Source: Bacteroidota bacterium
Lineage (GTDB): Bacteria; Bacteroidota; Rhodothermia; Rhodothermales; UBA10348
Length of the DNA stretch: 34,317 bases
NCBI GenBank assembly: GCA_029262835.1
Contig: JAJCYQ010000027.1
Location: forward strand, 1 to 34,317
Direction: 5' to 3'
Below the pieces are notes generated by a model, which worked only from the letters and a program-made list of their open reading frames with translations, made no database searches and was not told the DNA's origin. This document shows positions 108-14,287 of the stretch, one piece after another. Numbering within the stretch: position 1 is the stretch's first letter; each line of letters opens with the position of its first letter. A program made the translations under genes and the position numbers.

Positions 108-647
108 TCATTTACTCTCGCCGCCTTTCTTGTCGTGCTTCATGCCTTGGCCGTTTTTTTTGCCGTGCTGCATGCCCTGGCTGTCTTTTTTGCCGTGTTG
201 CATGCCCTGGCCGCCGCCCATACCCATGCCGCCTTTCTCCGGTTTGAGCGTGAGCAGGTAGGTCGTGATCTCCTGGAGTTCATCGTCGGAGAGCGTCGTG
301 ATGGGCGGCATGAGTCCGTGGTGCTCGATGGCCATGGCGGGCATGAGTGAGCGCTCCTCGGCGGGATCGACTACCCATTCCATGACCGTTGTCCGGATGG
401 CCTCGTCCGAATCGAGGGCCTTACGATAGTGCTGCATGATCATGGCCATGGGCGGCGCGAGGCTGGCGGGGGGCTGCACGCTGTGGCAGGTGGCGCATGT
501 GGCGTTGAAGAGTTTTTCTCCAGTCGATTGAGCCTGCTCAGCGGCGGCTTCCGCTGGTGCGGATTGAGCCTGGGCGGGGGCGACTGTTGTTGCCAGCAGG
601 AGCGCCGCGGCCAGTATCGGTGTGAGAGCGATGTGTCGTGTACGCAT
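108..647 (-). CDS. Secreted monoheme c-type cytochrome with Met/His/Lys-rich C-terminal repeats
   Basis: A 179-residue class I-like cytochrome c, probably an exported electron carrier or a small oxidase/reductase subunit. An N-terminal signal peptide (hydrophobic core about residues 8-26, cleavage near AQA-QS) is followed by the heme motif CATCH at residues 51-55. The sixth ligand is probably Met113 in GLMPP or Met102. The ORF continues past the usual cytochrome fold, which ends near residue 136, into a low-complexity tail (139-179) with three 10-residue repeats of the form QGMxHxKKxx at 147-176. Such Met/His tails could bind copper or other metals, but that is inference. It is monocistronic; the promoter should lie in the large interval at 648-1098. 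The electron-transfer partner cannot be read from the neighbours. Confidence 0.88.
   Translation of the reverse strand: MRTRHIALTPILAAALLLATTVAPAQAQSAPAEAAAEQAQSTGEKLFNATCATCHSVQPPASLAPPMAMIMQHYRKALDSDEAIRTTVMEWVVDPAEERSLMPAMAIEHHGLMPPITTLSDDELQEITTYLLTLKPEKGGMGMGGGQGMQHGKKDSQGMQHGKKNGQGMKHDKKGGESK
120..209 (-). repeat. Three 30-bp in-frame repeats in the cytochrome tail
   Basis: Three consecutive 30-nt units encode QGMQHGKKDS, QGMQHGKKNG and QGMKHDKKGG. Each unit supplies one Met, one His and two or more Lys. The DNA copies are similar enough to expand or contract by slippage, so the copy number may vary between strains. Confidence 0.85.
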
Positions 648-901
648 AATGGATAACCGGATGGGAAGGAGTACCGGGTGATTCTACGTCCAGTATGCAT
701 GCTTTCAAGCCGCCTTGCAAGCGCCTTGCCCCGACCTTTCTGTAGGGGATTCCTGCGTGCATGGGAATCCTGCCTACCTGTTCTGTACGTGTAGAGGGAC
801 ATAAGGTCGAAATGTCGCGATTTACAGCGCAAAAACCCATGCATCTCTTTGTCCGTCTTTCACTTACCTACGCATCCGCATCCAACAGCTAAGATACAGG
901 A

Positions 902-1005
902 TGGCGCAAGCCCGCTTGAGATGGCGCGAGCGGCTTCGAGCCGTCGCGAGCAGTTGCTTGCGACATTCCAGGGCCGCTCGCGCCAGCCTGGGCACCCTCG
1001 CGCCA
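902..1005. repeat. Symmetric array of six 9-10 bp repeats at exact 20-bp spacing
   Basis: Three forward copies of a TGGCGCRAGC-like motif begin at 902, 922 and 942. Three reverse copies occupy 957-965, 977-985 and 997-1005. Spacing inside each arm is exactly 20 bp, and all three forward/reverse pairs are centred on the same point, 953.5. The copies at 922-930, 977-985 and 997-1005 are identical over nine bases; the others differ by one or two. The 11-bp spacers are much less conserved than the motifs. Twenty bp is close to two helical turns, so the copies in an arm would lie on one face of DNA. As RNA it could form a 104-nt interrupted hairpin whose core is 943-952 paired with 955-964. The function is unknown: an operator array, a palindromic repetitive element or a structured RNA are all possible. 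Confidence 0.8.
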
Positions 1006-1070
1006 CGTAAGTACAATGCGATTTATATATAAATAATTGTTTATAAAGTAACTTACGCAAATATATTGCG
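1005..1070. promoter_or_regulatory. AT-rich block with nested palindromes next to the repeat array
   Basis: Sharply AT-rich against its surroundings. It contains a perfect 12-bp palindrome TTTATATATAAA at 1022-1033, an inverted pair CGTAAGT/ACTTACG near 1006-1057, and CGCAA-N5-TTGCG at 1056-1070. These look like promoter or protein-binding DNA. The direction of any promoter is unclear, because the only gene it could directly serve is the minus-strand cytochrome about 360 bases away. Confidence 0.4.
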
Positions 1071-1098
1071 ACATTTCGTCCTTATGTCCTCGACGACA

Positions 1099-1680
1099 TC
1101 ATGTGCGGTGCCCGTTCGGATGAGTCGCGGAGCCAGCTCCGATAGCCCAGCTCCGATAGCCGACGACGGCGAGAACCAGATACACGCCGTAGAGGCCGGC
1201 CGTCAGGTGCAGGTCGCGCAGCAGGTAGACGCCCACGGCGACGGAATCGATGACGATCCAGAAGAGCCAGTGCTCGATTTTCTTGTGGGCCATCAGGAAC
1301 TGGGCGACAAAGCTGGCGACGGTGGTGAAGGCGTCGGCCCAGGGAAGGGCGGCATCGGTCCAGGCGTGCATAGCCCAGCCCCAGAAGGCGCTGCCGAGGA
1401 GGGTGCCGGAGACAAGGACGGCGAGGGGGCGCCGGGCGAGAGTGGAGACAGGAAGAACCGGGCGCCCGGCGCCCCCTCGCCACGTCCACCACCCATAGAG
1501 CTGCACCCCCACATAGAACACGTGCAGGATCATGTCCGAGTAGAGCTTTGCATCCAGAAAAATAAACACGTAGAGCGCTACCGAGACGAGTCCGATGGGC
1601 CACGTCGCGATGTGCCGGCGTGTCGCCAGGTAGACGGCCACAATGCCGGTGGCGACGGCAACCCATTCAAGTGTGGCCAT
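1099..1680 (-). CDS. pnuC: PnuC-family nicotinamide riboside/vitamin transporter
   Basis: A 193-residue polytopic membrane protein of the PnuC family, which carries out facilitated uptake of nicotinamide riboside or related vitamins that are trapped by phosphorylation inside the cell. Family features are WPIGLVS at residues 27-33, VQLYGWWTW at 59-67, and the conserved block at 119-153 containing FVAQFLMAHKKIEHWLFW followed by D145. About seven hydrophobic segments fit the family. No kinase or NAD-salvage gene adjoins it, so the substrate (nicotinamide riboside, riboflavin or thiamine in some relatives) is inferred. The last 15 residues, after GYRSW, are read from a second copy of a 14-bp tandem duplication in a shifted frame, so this C-terminus is probably not ancestral. 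Confidence 0.88.
   Translation of the reverse strand: MATLEWVAVATGIVAVYLATRRHIATWPIGLVSVALYVFIFLDAKLYSDMILHVFYVGVQLYGWWTWRGGAGRPVLPVSTLARRPLAVLVSGTLLGSAFWGWAMHAWTDAALPWADAFTTVASFVAQFLMAHKKIEHWLFWIVIDSVAVGVYLLRDLHLTAGLYGVYLVLAVVGYRSWAIGAGSATHPNGHRT
1133..1160. repeat. Perfect 14-bp tandem duplication inside the 3' end of pnuC
   Basis: The 14 bases at 1133-1146 are repeated exactly at 1147-1160. Fourteen is not a multiple of three, so the duplication moves the pnuC reading frame. With two copies the protein ends ...GYRSWAIGAGS...HRT with a stop at 1099. With one copy it would continue as GYRSWLRDSSERAP... and stop at 1082. Confidence 0.9.
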
Positions 1681-2640: not shown

Positions 2641-5271
2641 GTGGCGCTGAGTCCACTACTTTTTCGGTCGAGCCTGCGCCATTTGGCGAGCCACCCGTGG
2701 CAGTTCGTGCTGTCGGTCGTGGGCGTCGCGGTCGGCGTGGCGGTCGTAGTCGCGATCGATCTGGCGAACGTGAGCGCGGAAAATTCCTTTCGCGAATCGT
2801 CCGAGATCGTAGCCGGCCGCGCCACACACCGGATCCAGGGCCCCTCGGCAGTGGGCCTGCCCGACTCCGTAATCGCACATCTGGTTCGACGCGGTCCGGC
2901 CCAGGGCTTGGACGTACCCATGACCCCGATCGTGGAGGGCTGGGTGCGGCCACGGCGCGCACCGGAGGTTACGCTGCAGGTGCTGGGTGTAGATCCGCTC
3001 CTCGAGCAGGCCTTCCGTCCCTATGCATCAGAGATTGCGCGGGAAGGAAATTCGGGAGATGCGGGGCAGAAAGCCGCGGCCTACGGTCTGGCTGACTTCC
3101 TCGGCGGAGAGCCCGTCGTGCTGCTGTCGTCGGAGACGGCCACGCGGCTTGAGCTCGCGCCGGGCGATACGTTCCGTGTGGCGGCGGGCGGCGTCGAGGA
3201 GGTGCTGACGCTGGCCCGAGCCGTCGATGCGGGGGACAACCTCGTCATCATGGATATTTCCCGTGCGCAGCAGGTGCTGGGCATGCAGGGGCGGCTCTCG
3301 CGCATTGACCTGATTTTGCCGGATGGCGGCGGCGCTGGCGCTGGCGGCGGCCCAGATGGTGCGGCGGCCCATCTGGCGCAGATGCTGCCGCCGGGCGCGG
3401 TGCTGGAGCGCTCATCGGCCCGGACCGAGACGCTGGCTCAGATGACGCGCGCGTTTTCGCTCAATCTGACGGCGCTCAGCCTGCTCGCGCTCATTGTGGG
3501 CATGTTTTTGACCTACAACACCATGTCCTTCTCCGTCGTGCAGCGCTATGCGCTCATTGGTCGGCTGCGCGCGGTCGGGGTGCGACGGCGCGAGGTGCTT
3601 TCCATGATCCTCTCGGAGGCGCTGGTTGTGGGGCTCATCGGGACGACGCTCGGCCTGGTGTTTGGTGTCGTGCTTGGCGAAGGGCTCGTGACGCTCGTCT
3701 CGCAGACCATCAACGATCTCTATTACAGCGTCTCGGTGTCGAAGCTCACCATTCATCCATTGACGCTTGCCAAAGGCATTGGCCTCGGGCTCGGCGCGAC
3801 GCTCGTCGCGGCCTGGGTACCAGCTCGCGCGGCGGCGGGTGTGACGGCGACGTCGCTGCTCAAGCGCTCGTCGGTCGAGGACCGCCTGCGTGGCCGGCTA
3901 CCCTTCCTTACGGCGCTCGGATGTCTGCTACTGGTGGCGGGCGGCGTGCTTCTATGGGCATCTGGACGGGGTATTGTGGTGGCGTATGCCGGTATTTTCA
4001 TGCTGATCATGGGATGGGCGCTGCTGGCCCCGGCGCTCACGACAGCTATTGTAGTGGGGCTGCGTCCGGCCATGTCGGCCGCGGGCGGTGTCGTTGGGCG
4101 CATGGCCGCTGGCAGCGTCAGGGCGCATCTGAGCCGAACGGCTGTGGCCATTGCGGCGCTCTCGATTGCGGTGAGTTCGGTCCTTGGCGTTGGCATCATG
4201 GTCGGCAGTTTCCGCACGACCGTCGTGACGTGGCTCCAGGGTGCGCTGCAGGCGGACATTTATGTGCAGCCGGTGGGCAATGGATTCCGGACCGGCCAGA
4301 GCGCCATTCGCGCCGATGTGCTCGCGGCGCTTGTCCAGGCGCCCGGCGTGGAGGCCGCGTTTGTCATTCGCCACGCCGAAGTGCTGTGGGAGGGCACACC
4401 GGTCCATCTGGCTGCTGTGGAGTTCGGGCCGCATTCGGCGACGACCCTTGCGCTCAAGACAGGTAGTGCGGAGGTGCTCGTTCCGCGGCTCCAGTCGGAG
4501 GACGTGGCCCTTGTGTCCGAGCCCTTCGCCTATCGGCACGGGACCGCGCCGGGCGACACGCTGCGCCTGGCCACGCCGTCGGGCCATGTGCTGATTCCTA
4601 TCGTCGGCATCTATCATGACTACGCGTCGGACCAGGGGACGATCATGATGGACCGCACGCGCTACGCCCGCCTGTTCGGCGACACAGCAGCCAGTGGGCT
4701 CGCCGTATTCGTGGCGCCGACGGGCGCCAGTGGCCAGGCGGCGGCCAGTGCGGACATCGACGCGGTCATGGCGTTGATGCAGTCCCGCGCGGGGCCGCTC
4801 CAGAACCTGGTCATTCGATCGAACCGCGAACTGCGGACCTATTCCATGGAGGTATTCGACCGCACGTTCACCGTCACGAAAGTGCTGCAGCTGCTGGCCG
4901 TGATCGTGGCATTTATTGGCATACTGAGCGCCCTCATGGCGCTCCAGCTCGAGCGTGCCCGTGAGTACGGCGTGCTGCGCGCATCGGGTATGACCGGGCG
5001 GCAACTCGGGCGGTTCGTGTCCTGGGAGTGCGGTCTGATGGGACTGGTATCGGGCCTGCTGGCCCTTCCGCTCGGCGGCGCACTCGCCATGGCGCTCATT
5101 TTCGTAATCAATCGGCGCAGTTTTGGATGGACGCTGCAGGTCGACGTATCCAGCGGAATATTCTTGGAAGGGCTGGTTGTGGCCGTTGTGGCGTCGCTGC
5201 TCGCGGGCATTCTGCCGGCGCGTGCCCTTCGGCGTCAACGCGCGGTCGATGCGCTCAGGGAGGGGGTGTGA
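2641..5271 (+). CDS. Duplicated FtsX-type ABC permease (AttF/AttG-like)
   Basis: An 876-residue inner-membrane permease with a GTG start preceded by an AAGG-type ribosome site. One transmembrane helix lies at about 21-40, then a large periplasmic domain, an FtsX block of three helices at about 270-410, further helices between about 420 and 525, a second periplasmic domain, and a C-terminal FtsX block at 748-876 with the typical ERAREYGVLRASG coupling region. This is two permease modules in one chain, as in YbbP-like proteins. LolC/E-like half-permeases would be about 400 residues. Such exporters move lipids or lipoproteins, or act mechanically on the envelope, rather than importing solutes. 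Its stop TGA shares one base with the ATG of the next gene, so translation is probably coupled. Confidence 0.92.
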   Translation: MALSPLLFRSSLRHLASHPWQFVLSVVGVAVGVAVVVAIDLANVSAENSFRESSEIVAGRATHRIQGPSAVGLPDSVIAHLVRRGPAQGLDVPMTPIVEGWVRPRRAPEVTLQVLGVDPLLEQAFRPYASEIAREGNSGDAGQKAAAYGLADFLGGEPVVLLSSETATRLELAPGDTFRVAAGGVEEVLTLARAVDAGDNLVIMDISRAQQVLGMQGRLSRIDLILPDGGGAGAGGGPDGAAAHLAQMLPPGAVLERSSARTETLAQMTRAFSLNLTALSLLALIVGMFLTYNTMSFSVVQRYALIGRLRAVGVRRREVLSMILSEALVVGLIGTTLGLVFGVVLGEGLVTLVSQTINDLYYSVSVSKLTIHPLTLAKGIGLGLGATLVAAWVPARAAAGVTATSLLKRSSVEDRLRGRLPFLTALGCLLLVAGGVLLWASGRGIVVAYAGIFMLIMGWALLAPALTTAIVVGLRPAMSAAGGVVGRMAAGSVRAHLSRTAVAIAALSIAVSSVLGVGIMVGSFRTTVVTWLQGALQADIYVQPVGNGFRTGQSAIRADVLAALVQAPGVEAAFVIRHAEVLWEGTPVHLAAVEFGPHSATTLALKTGSAEVLVPRLQSEDVALVSEPFAYRHGTAPGDTLRLATPSGHVLIPIVGIYHDYASDQGTIMMDRTRYARLFGDTAASGLAVFVAPTGASGQAAASADIDAVMALMQSRAGPLQNLVIRSNRELRTYSMEVFDRTFTVTKVLQLLAVIVAFIGILSALMALQLERAREYGVLRASGMTGRQLGRFVSWECGLMGLVSGLLALPLGGALAMALIFVINRRSFGWTLQVDVSSGIFLEGLVVAVVASLLAGILPARALRRQRAVDALREGV

Positions 5272-11595: not shown

Positions 11596-12840
11596 ATGGA
11601 CCTGAACCCCGTCATCCTCGCCATTCCGGTGTACTTCGCTCTGATGGGCGCCGAGCTGATCTACGAGGCGCTCTCCGGCAAGCGGACCTACCGCCTCAGC
11701 GACGCTGTCACGAACATCAATCTCGGCGCGCTCGATCAGCTCACGAGTACGTTCACGTACGTCATCAAGGTTGGCATATATACGCTTGTGTACGAGCAGT
11801 TGCGACTCATGACCATTCCGGCCACATGGATCTCATTTGCCGTGCTCTTTGTACTCTGGGACCTTTGCTACTACTGGAGCCACCGCATGGCGCACGAGGT
11901 GAGCCTGTTCTGGGGCGGACATGTGGTGCACCACCAGTCGGAAGACTTCAACCTCTCGACAGCGCTCCGTCAGAGCTCGACCTCCTTCATCTGGAGCATT
12001 CCGTTCTATCTGCCACTCGCCCTCTTCGGGTTTTCCCCCGTTCAATACCTTTTTGTGGGCGGCATCAACCTGCTCTACCAGTTCTGGATCCACACGGAGC
12101 ACATTGGTCGCCTCGGCGCGCTTGAATGGGTCATGAACACGCCCTCACACCACCGTGTGCACCACGGGCGCGACCCCAAGTACATTGATCGCAACTACGC
12201 CGGGGTATTCATTGTGTGGGATCGGCTTTTCGGTACGTTCAAGGAGGAGGAAGAGCGGCCGCACTACGGCATTACGCGGCCTCTCGCGAGTTGGAATCCT
12301 GTCTACGCGAATGTAGCACACTATATGGACCTGTTTCGCGACGTGCGCAAGGCCCGCGCGGCAGGCGACGCCGTCCGCATGCTCTTCGGCCCGCCGGGAT
12401 GGCGTCCCGAGTACATGGGGGGATACGACGCTCCGCAGCCCGTTCCGGAGCACTACGAAAAATACAATGCCCACCTGGCGGGCGCCAGGATGCAGCGCTA
12501 TGTCGTCGTGCAGTTCCTTTTCGCCATGGGCATCGTGGCGTTCTATCTGTTCCAGTTCGGGACGTTTCCTGTGAGCGTCAAGATCGCCATGGCCGCCTGG
12601 ATCATGGTAACGACGGTGACTTTTGGCGTGTTCTTTGAGTCGCGGCGCCCCGGTGTGTGGCTGCTTGAAGTCGTGCGCCAGGTGACAATCGGCGTGGGCG
12701 CGTGGTGGCTGGGTGCGGAGGGGCTCCTCACGGCGCCATATGGTATGGTCGTACCGCTTGCCGCCGGCGCGAGCCTGATCTGGTTTTTACGTGTCAGTAC
12801 CCGGCGGGGACGCTGGCTGCTTCCAGGGACGTCCGGATGA
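11596..12840 (+). CDS. Sterol desaturase / fatty-acid hydroxylase family protein (AGMO-like)
   Basis: A 414-residue integral membrane di-iron oxygenase-type protein. The start at 11596 is set by the GGAG site and by the first hydrophobic helix right after it. The histidine clusters of the superfamily are complete: SHRMAH (His96, His100), HVVHH (His109, His112, His113), HTEH (His166, His169) and SHHRVHHG (His185-186, His189-190). The spacing and the H-TEH-GRLG block resemble alkylglycerol monooxygenase (TMEM195) and bacterial ether- or lipid-hydroxylating relatives. The C-terminal part (about 300-410) adds further hydrophobic segments of unclear role. The likely reaction is O2-dependent hydroxylation or cleavage of a membrane lipid. 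The 3' end overlaps the convergent peptidase gene by 47 bases. Confidence 0.9.
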   Translation: MDLNPVILAIPVYFALMGAELIYEALSGKRTYRLSDAVTNINLGALDQLTSTFTYVIKVGIYTLVYEQLRLMTIPATWISFAVLFVLWDLCYYWSHRMAHEVSLFWGGHVVHHQSEDFNLSTALRQSSTSFIWSIPFYLPLALFGFSPVQYLFVGGINLLYQFWIHTEHIGRLGALEWVMNTPSHHRVHHGRDPKYIDRNYAGVFIVWDRLFGTFKEEEERPHYGITRPLASWNPVYANVAHYMDLFRDVRKARAAGDAVRMLFGPPGWRPEYMGGYDAPQPVPEHYEKYNAHLAGARMQRYVVVQFLFAMGIVAFYLFQFGTFPVSVKIAMAAWIMVTTVTFGVFFESRRPGVWLLEVVRQVTIGVGAWWLGAEGLLTAPYGMVVPLAAGASLIWFLRVSTRRGRWLLPGTSG

Positions 12841-14287
12841 ACCGTCGGATGTCTTCGTTCGACGTTACAAGGTCCTCCTCCCGCAGATACATCATGTGTC
12901 CGCTCCGATAGCCGATGAACGCCATCCTCTCCTGCAGTCGTCCTGCCGGATCCAGATTCCACATCGTGTACTTCGCGTTGAAGTAATCCGTGCCGCCGTC
13001 GTAGAAACCGGACTGGACCAGCACATGCAGGTACGGATTGCGGGCCATGGCATCGCGCAGGTTTTCGCCCGTCCGGTCGGAGGAGCGGTCCCACGGCGAA
13101 ACGGAGCCGAACAGGTTGTATTGCAGGTCGGTCCTGAAACCCACCACCTCGCGCAGATAGTGGTTGATGGCCGGCGCGAAGGCGTGGTTCCAGGCCGTGA
13201 GCGCCGGGTCATGATCGTAGCGCACGCCCGCATCCTGCCGGTCCCTGCCCCGGTACCGCGAGTCCAGGCGCCCGACCGTGAGTCCATCGTGTCGAAGCAG
13301 CTCCTTCCAGAAAAAGGATGTGGGTACGCGGAGGTTGTGTTCGAGGACGGTATCGGCGTCGAGCCCGGAATAGCGGGCCACGGTCTTGGCCAGCGCCCGG
13401 CGCTCGGCCGTGGGAAGTGAACCGCCGCGCGCGAGGGCGGGGAGGAGGGTCGATACCGTCCAGGCTTCTACTTCGGGCAGGAGCGCGTCCAGGTCCCGCG
13501 CCTGCAGGTCGGATTCGAGCTGCCCGTGATACCACGCCGTGGCGGCGTAATAGGGCAGGTAGAGCGCATCACGGACGGGTCCGTCACGGTCCACGCCGAG
13601 CCCGGTGGGCGAGACGAGGATGACTCCGTTCAGGAACATCCAATGCCGGTTCTGAAGCTGCGCGGCCAGCCCCGATACCCGCGTCGTGCCGTACGATTCG
13701 CCGATCAGATACTTGGGAGATGTCCACCGGTCCTTCCGCGATACGAAGGTATGGATCCACTCCGCGAGGTAGCGGATATCGGCTTCGACACCGAAAAACT
13801 GCTTTTCATCAACGCCGGGAAGTGCGCGGCTGAATCCGGTATTTACTGGATTCACGTAGACGATATCAGCCACATCAAGGATGGAGTGCGGGTTGTCGTG
13901 GACTCCGTAGGGCTGCGTAGGAAGTCCTTCGGGATCGATGTTGAGTTGGACGGGTGACGTATAGCCGATATGCATCCAAAGCGATGCCGAGCCAGGGCCG
14001 CCGTTGAATGAGATAACGAGCGGGCGGCGCGCCGTCGGTCCGTCATTTGTGCGCGTGTAATAGGTATACTGAAGGGCCGCGATAGGTTGGCCTTCCTCGC
14101 CAAAAACAGGCTGGAATCCGAACTCGCGCGTGTATTCGACCGTTTCGCCGTTGATGTCGGCACGGACCGTGGCCGAGAATGACGTATCGGCAGGCGGGTG
14201 TGTCTGGGCCCAGGACGGGACGACGGTCAATCCGACGAGGAGTGCGACAAGGGCGGGAAGGAAGGAGCTTCTACGTGGTGTATTCAT
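12794..14287 (-). CDS. Secreted S10-like serine carboxypeptidase
   Basis: A 497-residue exported alpha/beta-hydrolase peptidase. The start at 14287 is chosen because an AGAGA-type ribosome site precedes it and a signal peptide follows (1-27, ending SWAQ). The oxyanion block NGGPGS lies at 95-100, the nucleophile Ser198 in GESYG, Asp430 in SGFYDGGTDYF and His464 in YRSGHMMY, in the order Ser-Asp-His expected of S10 carboxypeptidases. It probably trims C-terminal residues of peptides in the periplasm or outside the cell. It is a single gene, convergent with the AGMO-like gene and divergent from the RRM gene. Confidence 0.92.
   Translation of the reverse strand: MNTPRRSSFLPALVALLVGLTVVPSWAQTHPPADTSFSATVRADINGETVEYTREFGFQPVFGEEGQPIAALQYTYYTRTNDGPTARRPLVISFNGGPGSASLWMHIGYTSPVQLNIDPEGLPTQPYGVHDNPHSILDVADIVYVNPVNTGFSRALPGVDEKQFFGVEADIRYLAEWIHTFVSRKDRWTSPKYLIGESYGTTRVSGLAAQLQNRHWMFLNGVILVSPTGLGVDRDGPVRDALYLPYYAATAWYHGQLESDLQARDLDALLPEVEAWTVSTLLPALARGGSLPTAERRALAKTVARYSGLDADTVLEHNLRVPTSFFWKELLRHDGLTVGRLDSRYRGRDRQDAGVRYDHDPALTAWNHAFAPAINHYLREVVGFRTDLQYNLFGSVSPWDRSSDRTGENLRDAMARNPYLHVLVQSGFYDGGTDYFNAKYTMWNLDPAGRLQERMAFIGYRSGHMMYLREEDLVTSNEDIRRFIRTSLEAASVPAGY

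Follow-up and report, generated by a model that had tools for sequence, protein, structure and literature searches.

The window analysed here is the whole stretch of 34,317 nucleotides taken from a draft genome of the Bacteroidota (Rhodothermales; contig JAJCYQ010000027.1). Near its beginning, a cytochrome c gene (108–647, minus strand; Pfam Cytochrome_CBB3/Cytochrom_C) and a gene for a pnuC-type NMN transporter (1099–1680, minus strand) are separated by the interval 648–1098, in which no gene was called, in agreement with the geneless region of the original prediction. Six boxes of 10 bp can be read from the sequence of this interval, three on the plus strand (TGGCGCAAGC, 902–911; TGGCGCGAGC, 922–931; CGTCGCGAGC, 942–951) and three on the minus strand (GCTTGCGACA, 956–965; GCTCGCGCCA, 976–985; CCTCGCGCCA, 996–1005). 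As had been described, the forward and the reverse boxes follow each other in exact 20-bp steps and are arranged around position 953.5. The dyad centre (952–955) comprises 4 nt between the 10-mers, or 8 nt between the 8-bp box cores, compared with 7 nt in most other copies of the same genome. The two innermost boxes have the GTCGC form, which is a regular alternative in other copies of the element, and the outermost reverse box deviates at one end. When scored as three plus three boxes in 20-bp steps, the array at 902–1005 reached 47 of 48, whereas the maximum in 60 dinucleotide-preserving shuffles was 36. Together with the recurrence of the same design across the genome, this speaks against a chance pattern in GC-rich DNA.

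The array forms the middle of an element of 293 bp (797–1089) with terminal inverted repeats of 24–28 bp, a frame that was absent from the original prediction. The left terminal repeat (797–824, plus strand; 24-mer core GGACATAAGGTCGAAATGTCGCGA at 797–820) and the right one (1062–1089, minus strand; 24-mer core at 1066–1089) form a 28-nt inverted repeat with 89% complementarity, and no match to the terminus pattern is expected by chance in the window. Towards the interior of the element, the terminus ends in another box (ATGTCGCGA). Between the left terminus and the array lies a long arm (825–901), which contains a weak form of the sequence block TTGTCTRCCA..ACTTAC and places the first box at element position 106, and on the other side a short AT-rich arm (1006–1061) places the first box at position 85 from the right end. 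The terminal repeats also enclose the pair TAAGATACA (890–898) and TAAGTACA (1008–1015), which had been proposed as a decayed target duplication. The pair exists, but since it is located inside the element, it cannot be the target duplication of that element. Both flanking genes lie outside the element, with the cytochrome c gene downstream and pnuC upstream of it.

Copies in the host genome and their common plan

When the array alone was compared with its own genome (G000, a draft assembly of 103 contigs with 97.6% completeness) by BLAST, 15 matches including the array itself were obtained on both strands. The left terminus GGACATAAGGTCGAAATGTCGCGA gave 18 matches with up to three mismatches in this genome, compared with none for the reversed control. 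Thirteen elements with paired inverted termini, and two more that were recognised by slightly looser termini, add up to 15 copies in G000, which additionally contains one lone terminus on contig C9. The search for the motif with 20-bp spacing that had been suggested thus yielded dispersed copies, favouring a repetitive element, and the 15 terminus-paired copies bear out the palindromic mobile or repetitive element that had been listed as one option.

The family has a common plan, in which a terminus is followed by an arm, forward boxes in 20-bp steps, a short centre, reverse boxes in 20-bp steps, a second arm and the second terminus. The paired elements are 184–333 bp long, with a range of 203–333 bp in G000, and 12 of the 15 copies in G000, including the one in the window, contain the full array of three plus three boxes, whereas the array is cut in C80, C87 and C96b. 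Left and right 24-mer termini have a mean identity of 83% (21 elements). Outward of the 24-mer, a weaker pattern, T..AT.ATGT..TC.G, extends to about position –16 (58 ends), and the full terminus perhaps measures 37–40 bp, as judged from this alignment of ends. None of 31 elements wholly contains an open reading frame called by a codon-score caller, and in five of them (C70b, C32, g3C82, g3C88x and g3C88) called reading frames intrude 24–72 bp into one end.

The spacing within the elements is nearly constant. In 51 of 53 scorable arms, the distance of the first box to the terminus is either 83–85 bp (22 arms) or 104–106 bp (29 arms). Scorable are those of the 62 arms of the 31 elements that reached a box score of at least 21, among them the four that belong to the near-copies g3C48 and g3C75; box positions for these and for the array counts were searched within set ranges, with 6–11 as the range for the centre. 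Arms and spacers hardly align between copies, both in G000 and in the second species that carries the family; the long arms share the weak block TTGTCTRCCA..ACTTAC and the short arms are AT-rich. In 17 aligned cores, all 22 invariant columns fall inside boxes, which is in line with the earlier statement that the boxes are kept and the spacers are not, and is partly a consequence of construction, as the cores were registered by their boxes. Wherever the array is clear, 7 or 8 bp separate the innermost box cores, and the 7-bp variant has an asymmetric, GCGTGAA-like sequence. Miniature elements of bacteria are generally regarded as decayed transposons with uninformative interiors; in this family, the interior is the most regular part, since the boxes keep their positions and the arms their lengths in both species, whereas the rest drifts.

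Distribution among relatives

Among 60 genomes searched with the terminus pattern (up to two mismatches), eight including G000 gave matches, and paired, repeated copies were found exclusively in G000 and the congeneric G003 (MAG Bacteroidota bacterium OFTM240), which contains about 18 loci when truncated ones are counted. In G013, G026, G027, G043, G049 and G059, one or two lone terminus matches were detected, and no match to the core was present within 1.5 kb of them. A core model of 116 positions, built from sequence alone with the 17 cores (R1), found matches with E ≤ 0.001 in three of 114 genomes of the order, namely G000, G003 and, marginally (21 bits), G020, in a scan with strict filters by which weak matches may be lost. 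G001 and G002, which belong to the same genus, matched neither the terminus pattern nor the core model; G001 contains the exact 13-mer of the terminus core at two isolated places. Five elements of G003 (L142, L144–L147) have an outer terminus with CCTCTG where CATACG is otherwise found; three of the five show this at a single end, and from this mixing of sequences the ends of the elements appear to be exchangeable.

No match was obtained in the plasmids and phages searched, and no exact terminus in the viral contigs searched. A collection of genome contigs contained matches in OFTM240 (7 loci) and one in a member of the Sphingomonadaceae, which we rejected as a chance match because it consists of a lone terminus with a 16-bit core match 4.5 kb away. 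In G020, which represents another genus of the same taxonomic family, the box recurs on contig C224 (L149, 1172–1239) as TCGCGCCA, in four direct copies at exact 20-bp steps, and no inverted half was seen there. A related protein may use this tandem repeat as an array of sites, or the repeat may have arisen by chance. On contig C27 of G003 (L087, around 3650–3716), tandem units of about 9 bp (GGACATAGG) derived from the outer terminus are located directly beside the left end of an element. The genus also contains a second abundant repeat family, which consists of modules of about 170 bp and about 90 bp with dozens of copies in G000–G003. Its copies are mostly 80–100% identical, a number of them are located at contig ends, and it adjoins one copy of the array element at C48 of G003 (L053, 1843–2102).

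At the site of the window, G001 and G002 retain the pair of cytochrome c gene and pnuC with a much shorter interval and without the element, whereas the gene order differs in G003, so that the comparison for the window copy (C27) gives no call. The original prediction had reasoned that relatives keeping the flanking genes but lacking the motifs would make a chance pattern likely. Exactly this constellation exists at the window locus, but as further copies of the element are present in the genome, it demonstrates presence/absence variation and not chance. Eight further elements of G000 were compared with G003 by flank searches. For five of them (C12, C50a, C50b, C87 and C100), both flanks were found without an element between them, and the search gave no decision for C32, C96 and C58. 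C70b is missing from a collinear contig of G003, as is about 1.7 kb of the DNA around it, and the number of G000 elements absent from G003 is thus six in total. At C12, C100 and C50a, the interval in G003 differs by more than the element alone, and at the empty sites of C12, C100, C87 and C50a the absence is clear, while divergence or enlargement of the intergenic DNA prevents the junction from being located. The missing stretch of about 1.7 kb on contig C70 of G000 (L080, about 12322–14056) contains an alpha/beta-hydrolase reading frame in addition to C70b, and could be either a cargo-bearing insertion in G000 or a deletion in G003.

Elements at corresponding places in G000 and G003 were found for C98, C59, C70a and C80, and possibly for C96b, for which a single flank was matched. 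The lone terminus on C9 of G000 corresponds to the place of a full element in G003, and one shared copy, g3C41, has lost most of its array. The flanking DNA at the shared sites is approximately 70–89% identical. G003 additionally contains three copies that are 94–96% identical over 359–397 bp and a fourth, truncated one. At the C48 site, no element is present in G000 and G001; at the C40 site, it is lacking in G002, and G000 and G001 share only the left flank with no element after it. In these recent copies, the identity extends about 54 bp on the left and about 30 bp on the right beyond the 24-mers, and the mobile unit may accordingly be larger than the element, or copying may occur via recombination. 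Elsewhere, arms and spacers are highly divergent between copies, and a recent master copy is visible in G003 only. Taken together, the family looks old, with recent spreading at least in G003 and decay in places.

Mobility, maintenance and related elements

We consider it probable that the segment 797–1089 is a copy of a gene-less, non-autonomous, MITE-like family of mobile repeats, in which the boxes would dock the mobilising enzyme. This reading builds directly on the common plan, the copy number, the presence or absence among congeners, the constant spacing and the lack of covariation beyond the consensus that is described below. The boxes, which also occur at the inner end of each terminal repeat, would be duplex-DNA sites of one protein, most likely the mobilising transposase or recombinase, which would be provided in trans. 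By virtue of the constant arm lengths and the 20-bp phase, this protein could fold the element into a synaptic complex. The natural copies directly reveal which architecture movement, or else a host function, requires, and the element is a ready bait for finding its protein.

Several observations do not agree with a mobile repeat: neither a parent element nor a target duplication was found, Tn3-type transposase genes are lacking and the integrase genes show no informative link. No target-site duplication was detected at offsets of 0–20 in 13 elements, and direct repeats were not in excess, with a mean longest repeat of 4.59 bp within elements compared with 4.73 bp between elements (29 elements). 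The lack of duplications is not decisive, as most copies look old. The exact 13-mer terminus cores in the draft assembly of G000 are all (18 of 18) located inside the listed elements and thus reveal no autonomous parent there, and among 31 terminus hits with one mismatch in the same genome no inward-facing pair suggested a larger element; inward pairs 0.4–20 kb apart were joins of separate elements or involved one distant single match. The parent element may reside elsewhere. A Tn3-type transposase (PF01526) is encoded in none of the four congeneric genomes, whereas all four contain integrase-family genes (5, 3, 5 and 4), which have no clear link to the presence of the element. In a rough comparison that included a wrong reading frame at at least one locus (G3C65), zero to two scattered boxes were found in the 2.7–3.5 kb around each integrase-family gene. 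Since a duplication and an autonomous partner are expected features of MITEs and were sought without success, we use the term MITE-like and do not assign the family to MITEs of a known kind.

The main rival of a mobile repeat is a domesticated host element, because some copies were kept through speciation together with their architecture. According to this explanation, selection would now retain the resident copies of an old mobile repeat because a nucleoid, boundary or regulatory protein of the host assembles at these dispersed sites. The four elements and one relic at corresponding places in G000 and G003, with flanks of merely 70–89% identity, are consistent with such a role, as is the fixed architecture around hardly alignable filler sequence in both species. 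In the orthologous pair C98/g3C27, the sole pair with an alignment clean enough for a test, termini and boxes kept 76 of 96 positions compared with 97 of 172 in arms and spacers (P = 1.2e-4). However, boxes compared with spacers alone gave P = 0.07 in this single pair, six copies are specific to G000 at sites where both flanks were found in G003, and two congeners have no match to terminus or core model apart from the two lone 13-mers in G001. The lack of a common function among the flanking genes, the loss of most of the array in g3C41 and the reduction of C9 to a single terminus likewise make retention by the host the less convincing explanation, and we regard it as unlikely. A related and rather doubtful generalisation is that the family constitutes a gene-less scaffold for protein assembly, with inverted-repeat ends and two facing, phased arrays that meet head to head around an asymmetric core of 7–8 bp. 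Position and spacing would then be under selection while the filler is free to change, and resident copies would be kept through speciation as docking sites of one putative protein.

An additional possibility concerns the function of the centre. The inverted pair of boxes around an asymmetric centre of 7–8 bp, which we take to be similar to att and IRS sites, could form the crossover core for a tyrosine recombinase, with the outer boxes as accessory sites, and the element would then be a gene-less transposon with a complete recombination or resolution site. Such a site would be compatible with the 7 or 8 bp that separate the box cores where the array is clear, and with the asymmetry of the 7-bp form. 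By the asymmetric centre, 9 of 13 elements in G000 can be oriented, and in each of the six among these with arms of unequal length the long arm occupies the same side, according to a criterion that was chosen after seeing the data. Precedents are IS101 and the TIMEs, which in the published account combine inverted repeats with a possible resolution site and contain no genes (PMC4133298). However, the 8-bp centre of the window copy does not allow this copy to be oriented, and the spacers of the copy point in the opposite direction. Considering also the missing Tn3-type transposase in the four congeneric genomes and the integrase-family genes that have no clear link to the elements and few boxes in their surroundings, a recombination site appears quite improbable.

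Ends with several similar sites bound by a transposase, about 19–22 bp apart, are known from Tn7- and Tn402-type elements, which carry genes and make 5-bp duplications. The family described here differs from them in that the arrays meet in the middle of the element without cargo and in that the sequence of the ends is different. REP/BIME repeats, which are mobilised by RAYT, are defined by a GTAG-type hairpin and the RAYT transposase gene. A literature search brought up no paper on the present repeat, which is not proof of its absence from the literature. With a review on MITEs as frame of comparison (PMC10969869), the closest likeness among the papers compared was found for BrickBuilt of Porphyromonas gingivalis, which is likewise from the Bacteroidota and in which inverted-repeat ends enclose direct repeats of about 20 bp (PMC4596501). 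BrickBuilt is described as a MITE with an internal minisatellite, for which 19 copies are reported in strain ATCC 33277, always intergenic, with no transposase remnant and with a narrow host range (PMC4596501). Its 23-nt repeats are arranged head to tail without spacers and in variable number, leader and tail are distinct, and the short GAGACCTT-type ends are listed beside an IS5-family end, with target duplications in three of four testable copies (PMC4596501). In contrast, the present family has two facing arrays, spacers of 10–12 bp, fixed arms and a GGACATAAGG-type terminus of 24–40 bp, and no duplication was seen. With 20-bp steps that include spacers, facing arrays and GGACATAAGG-type ends, it does not belong to BrickBuilt. 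TIMEs are described as 262 bp in length, with long inverted repeats, no gene and possibly an internal recombination site, and have 38-bp ends of the Tn3 family with target duplications of 5–6 bp (PMC4133298). Judged by the missing duplication and the absence of PF01526 from all four congeneric genomes, the present family is probably not a Tn3-derived TIME. The pneumococcal BOX element is similarly a modular interspersed repeat with variable internal modules between fixed end modules, but it consists of tandem boxB modules between unlike boxA and boxC, has inverted ends with a target duplication, and facing arrays with 20-bp phase are not part of its description in the account consulted (PMC3049150).

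Base pairing and gene context

Folding of the dyad into a long hairpin, either as structured RNA or as DNA cruciform, would be the functional form under a further explanation, of which the RNA variant had been part of the original prediction. Single strands of the array fold with z = –8.35 relative to shuffles, as expected of any dyad, and the innermost boxes face each other across 3–4 nt between the 10-mers. Pairing in register exceeded pairing with the 3' side slid by one to three columns, also in the spacers (59.4% compared with 30–48%), which follows from the shared consensus. However, boxes paired to 89.7% compared with 88.7% when the partners were redealt among elements (78 of 500 shuffles were as high), spacers to 59.4% in both cases (264 of 500 shuffles as high), and pairs changed on both sides were fewer than in the shuffles. 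These values were obtained with 17 cores, while pairs that never vary provide no information on covariation. A permutation test with 19 of 23 elements agreed in finding no covariation beyond the consensus. For this test, C87 and g3C41 were left out because of deletions and g3C48 and g3C75 as near-copies of g3C40, and in C80 and C96b the centre was placed manually; the 17 cores are the same set further reduced by these two elements with cut arrays.

Individual positions gave a mixed picture. Box position 3 (T/G/A) matched between the halves in 0.67 of cases compared with 0.53 expected (P = 0.009 and 0.016 in two shuffles), and left and right termini matched slightly better within than between elements (P = 0.016, and 0.006 for the outer part; 21 elements), both of which would be compatible with a hairpin. 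In contrast, box positions 6–7 and the spacer positions adjacent to the boxes matched less than expected between the halves (19 elements). Mismatches in the terminal stem comprised 28 G-U pairs compared with 22 A-C pairs and 34 of other kinds, with no clear strand signal, and the core model scored both strands alike in several copies. A search of Rfam returned exclusively microRNA families, far below the gathering score. With halves of the dyad that do not covary beyond the consensus and no Rfam match at gathering level, we judge a structured RNA or cruciform to be very improbable. The same lack of covariation favours boxes that act as protein sites on duplex DNA, as far as can be deduced from aligned sequences. 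Conserved boxes, free spacers and independent halves therefore fit the cooperative protein-binding array that was originally favoured, but not its specific form as an operator of the cytochrome gene.

In 31 loci for which the gene context was determined by the codon-score caller (a slightly different set, with g3C38 and without g3C75), the flanking genes were co-directional in 14, divergent in 11 and convergent in 5 cases, and one interval was undetermined. Pfam domains of 20 neighbouring proteins (18 from G000, 2 from G003) included BacA, NFACT, SecG, phosphoglucomutase, a SpoU methylase, glutamate dehydrogenase, DHDPS, an ABC protein, a trypsin/PDZ protease, ferritin, TetR and a rhomboid protein, among others, with five proteins lacking a Pfam match and no function common to the neighbours. 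The position of the element, upstream of one gene and downstream of the other, could be cited for a cooperative operator that serves cytochrome c or pnuC. Such an operator is hardly credible, since the genome-wide distribution contradicts it, in which the other 14 copies with paired termini adjoin unrelated genes, some of them convergent and thus not expected to have a promoter between them, and since G001 and G002 have the cytochrome-pnuC pair without the element. As a caution, a palindromic array near a gene can be the core of an element and need not be an operator.

The two genes that flank the element in the window contain repeats of their own. The cytochrome c reading frame terminates in repeats (108–240), and bases 5–145 match a segment on another contig of the same genome (G000:C49:99067–99207) with 83% identity. 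Near the 3' end of pnuC, CCAGCTCCGATAGC is exactly duplicated in tandem (1133–1160), and further inside its coding region, positions 1420–1481 contain a GC-rich, near-perfect inverted repeat formed by GGCGAGGGGGCGCCGGGCG and CGCCCGGCGCCCCCTCGCC.
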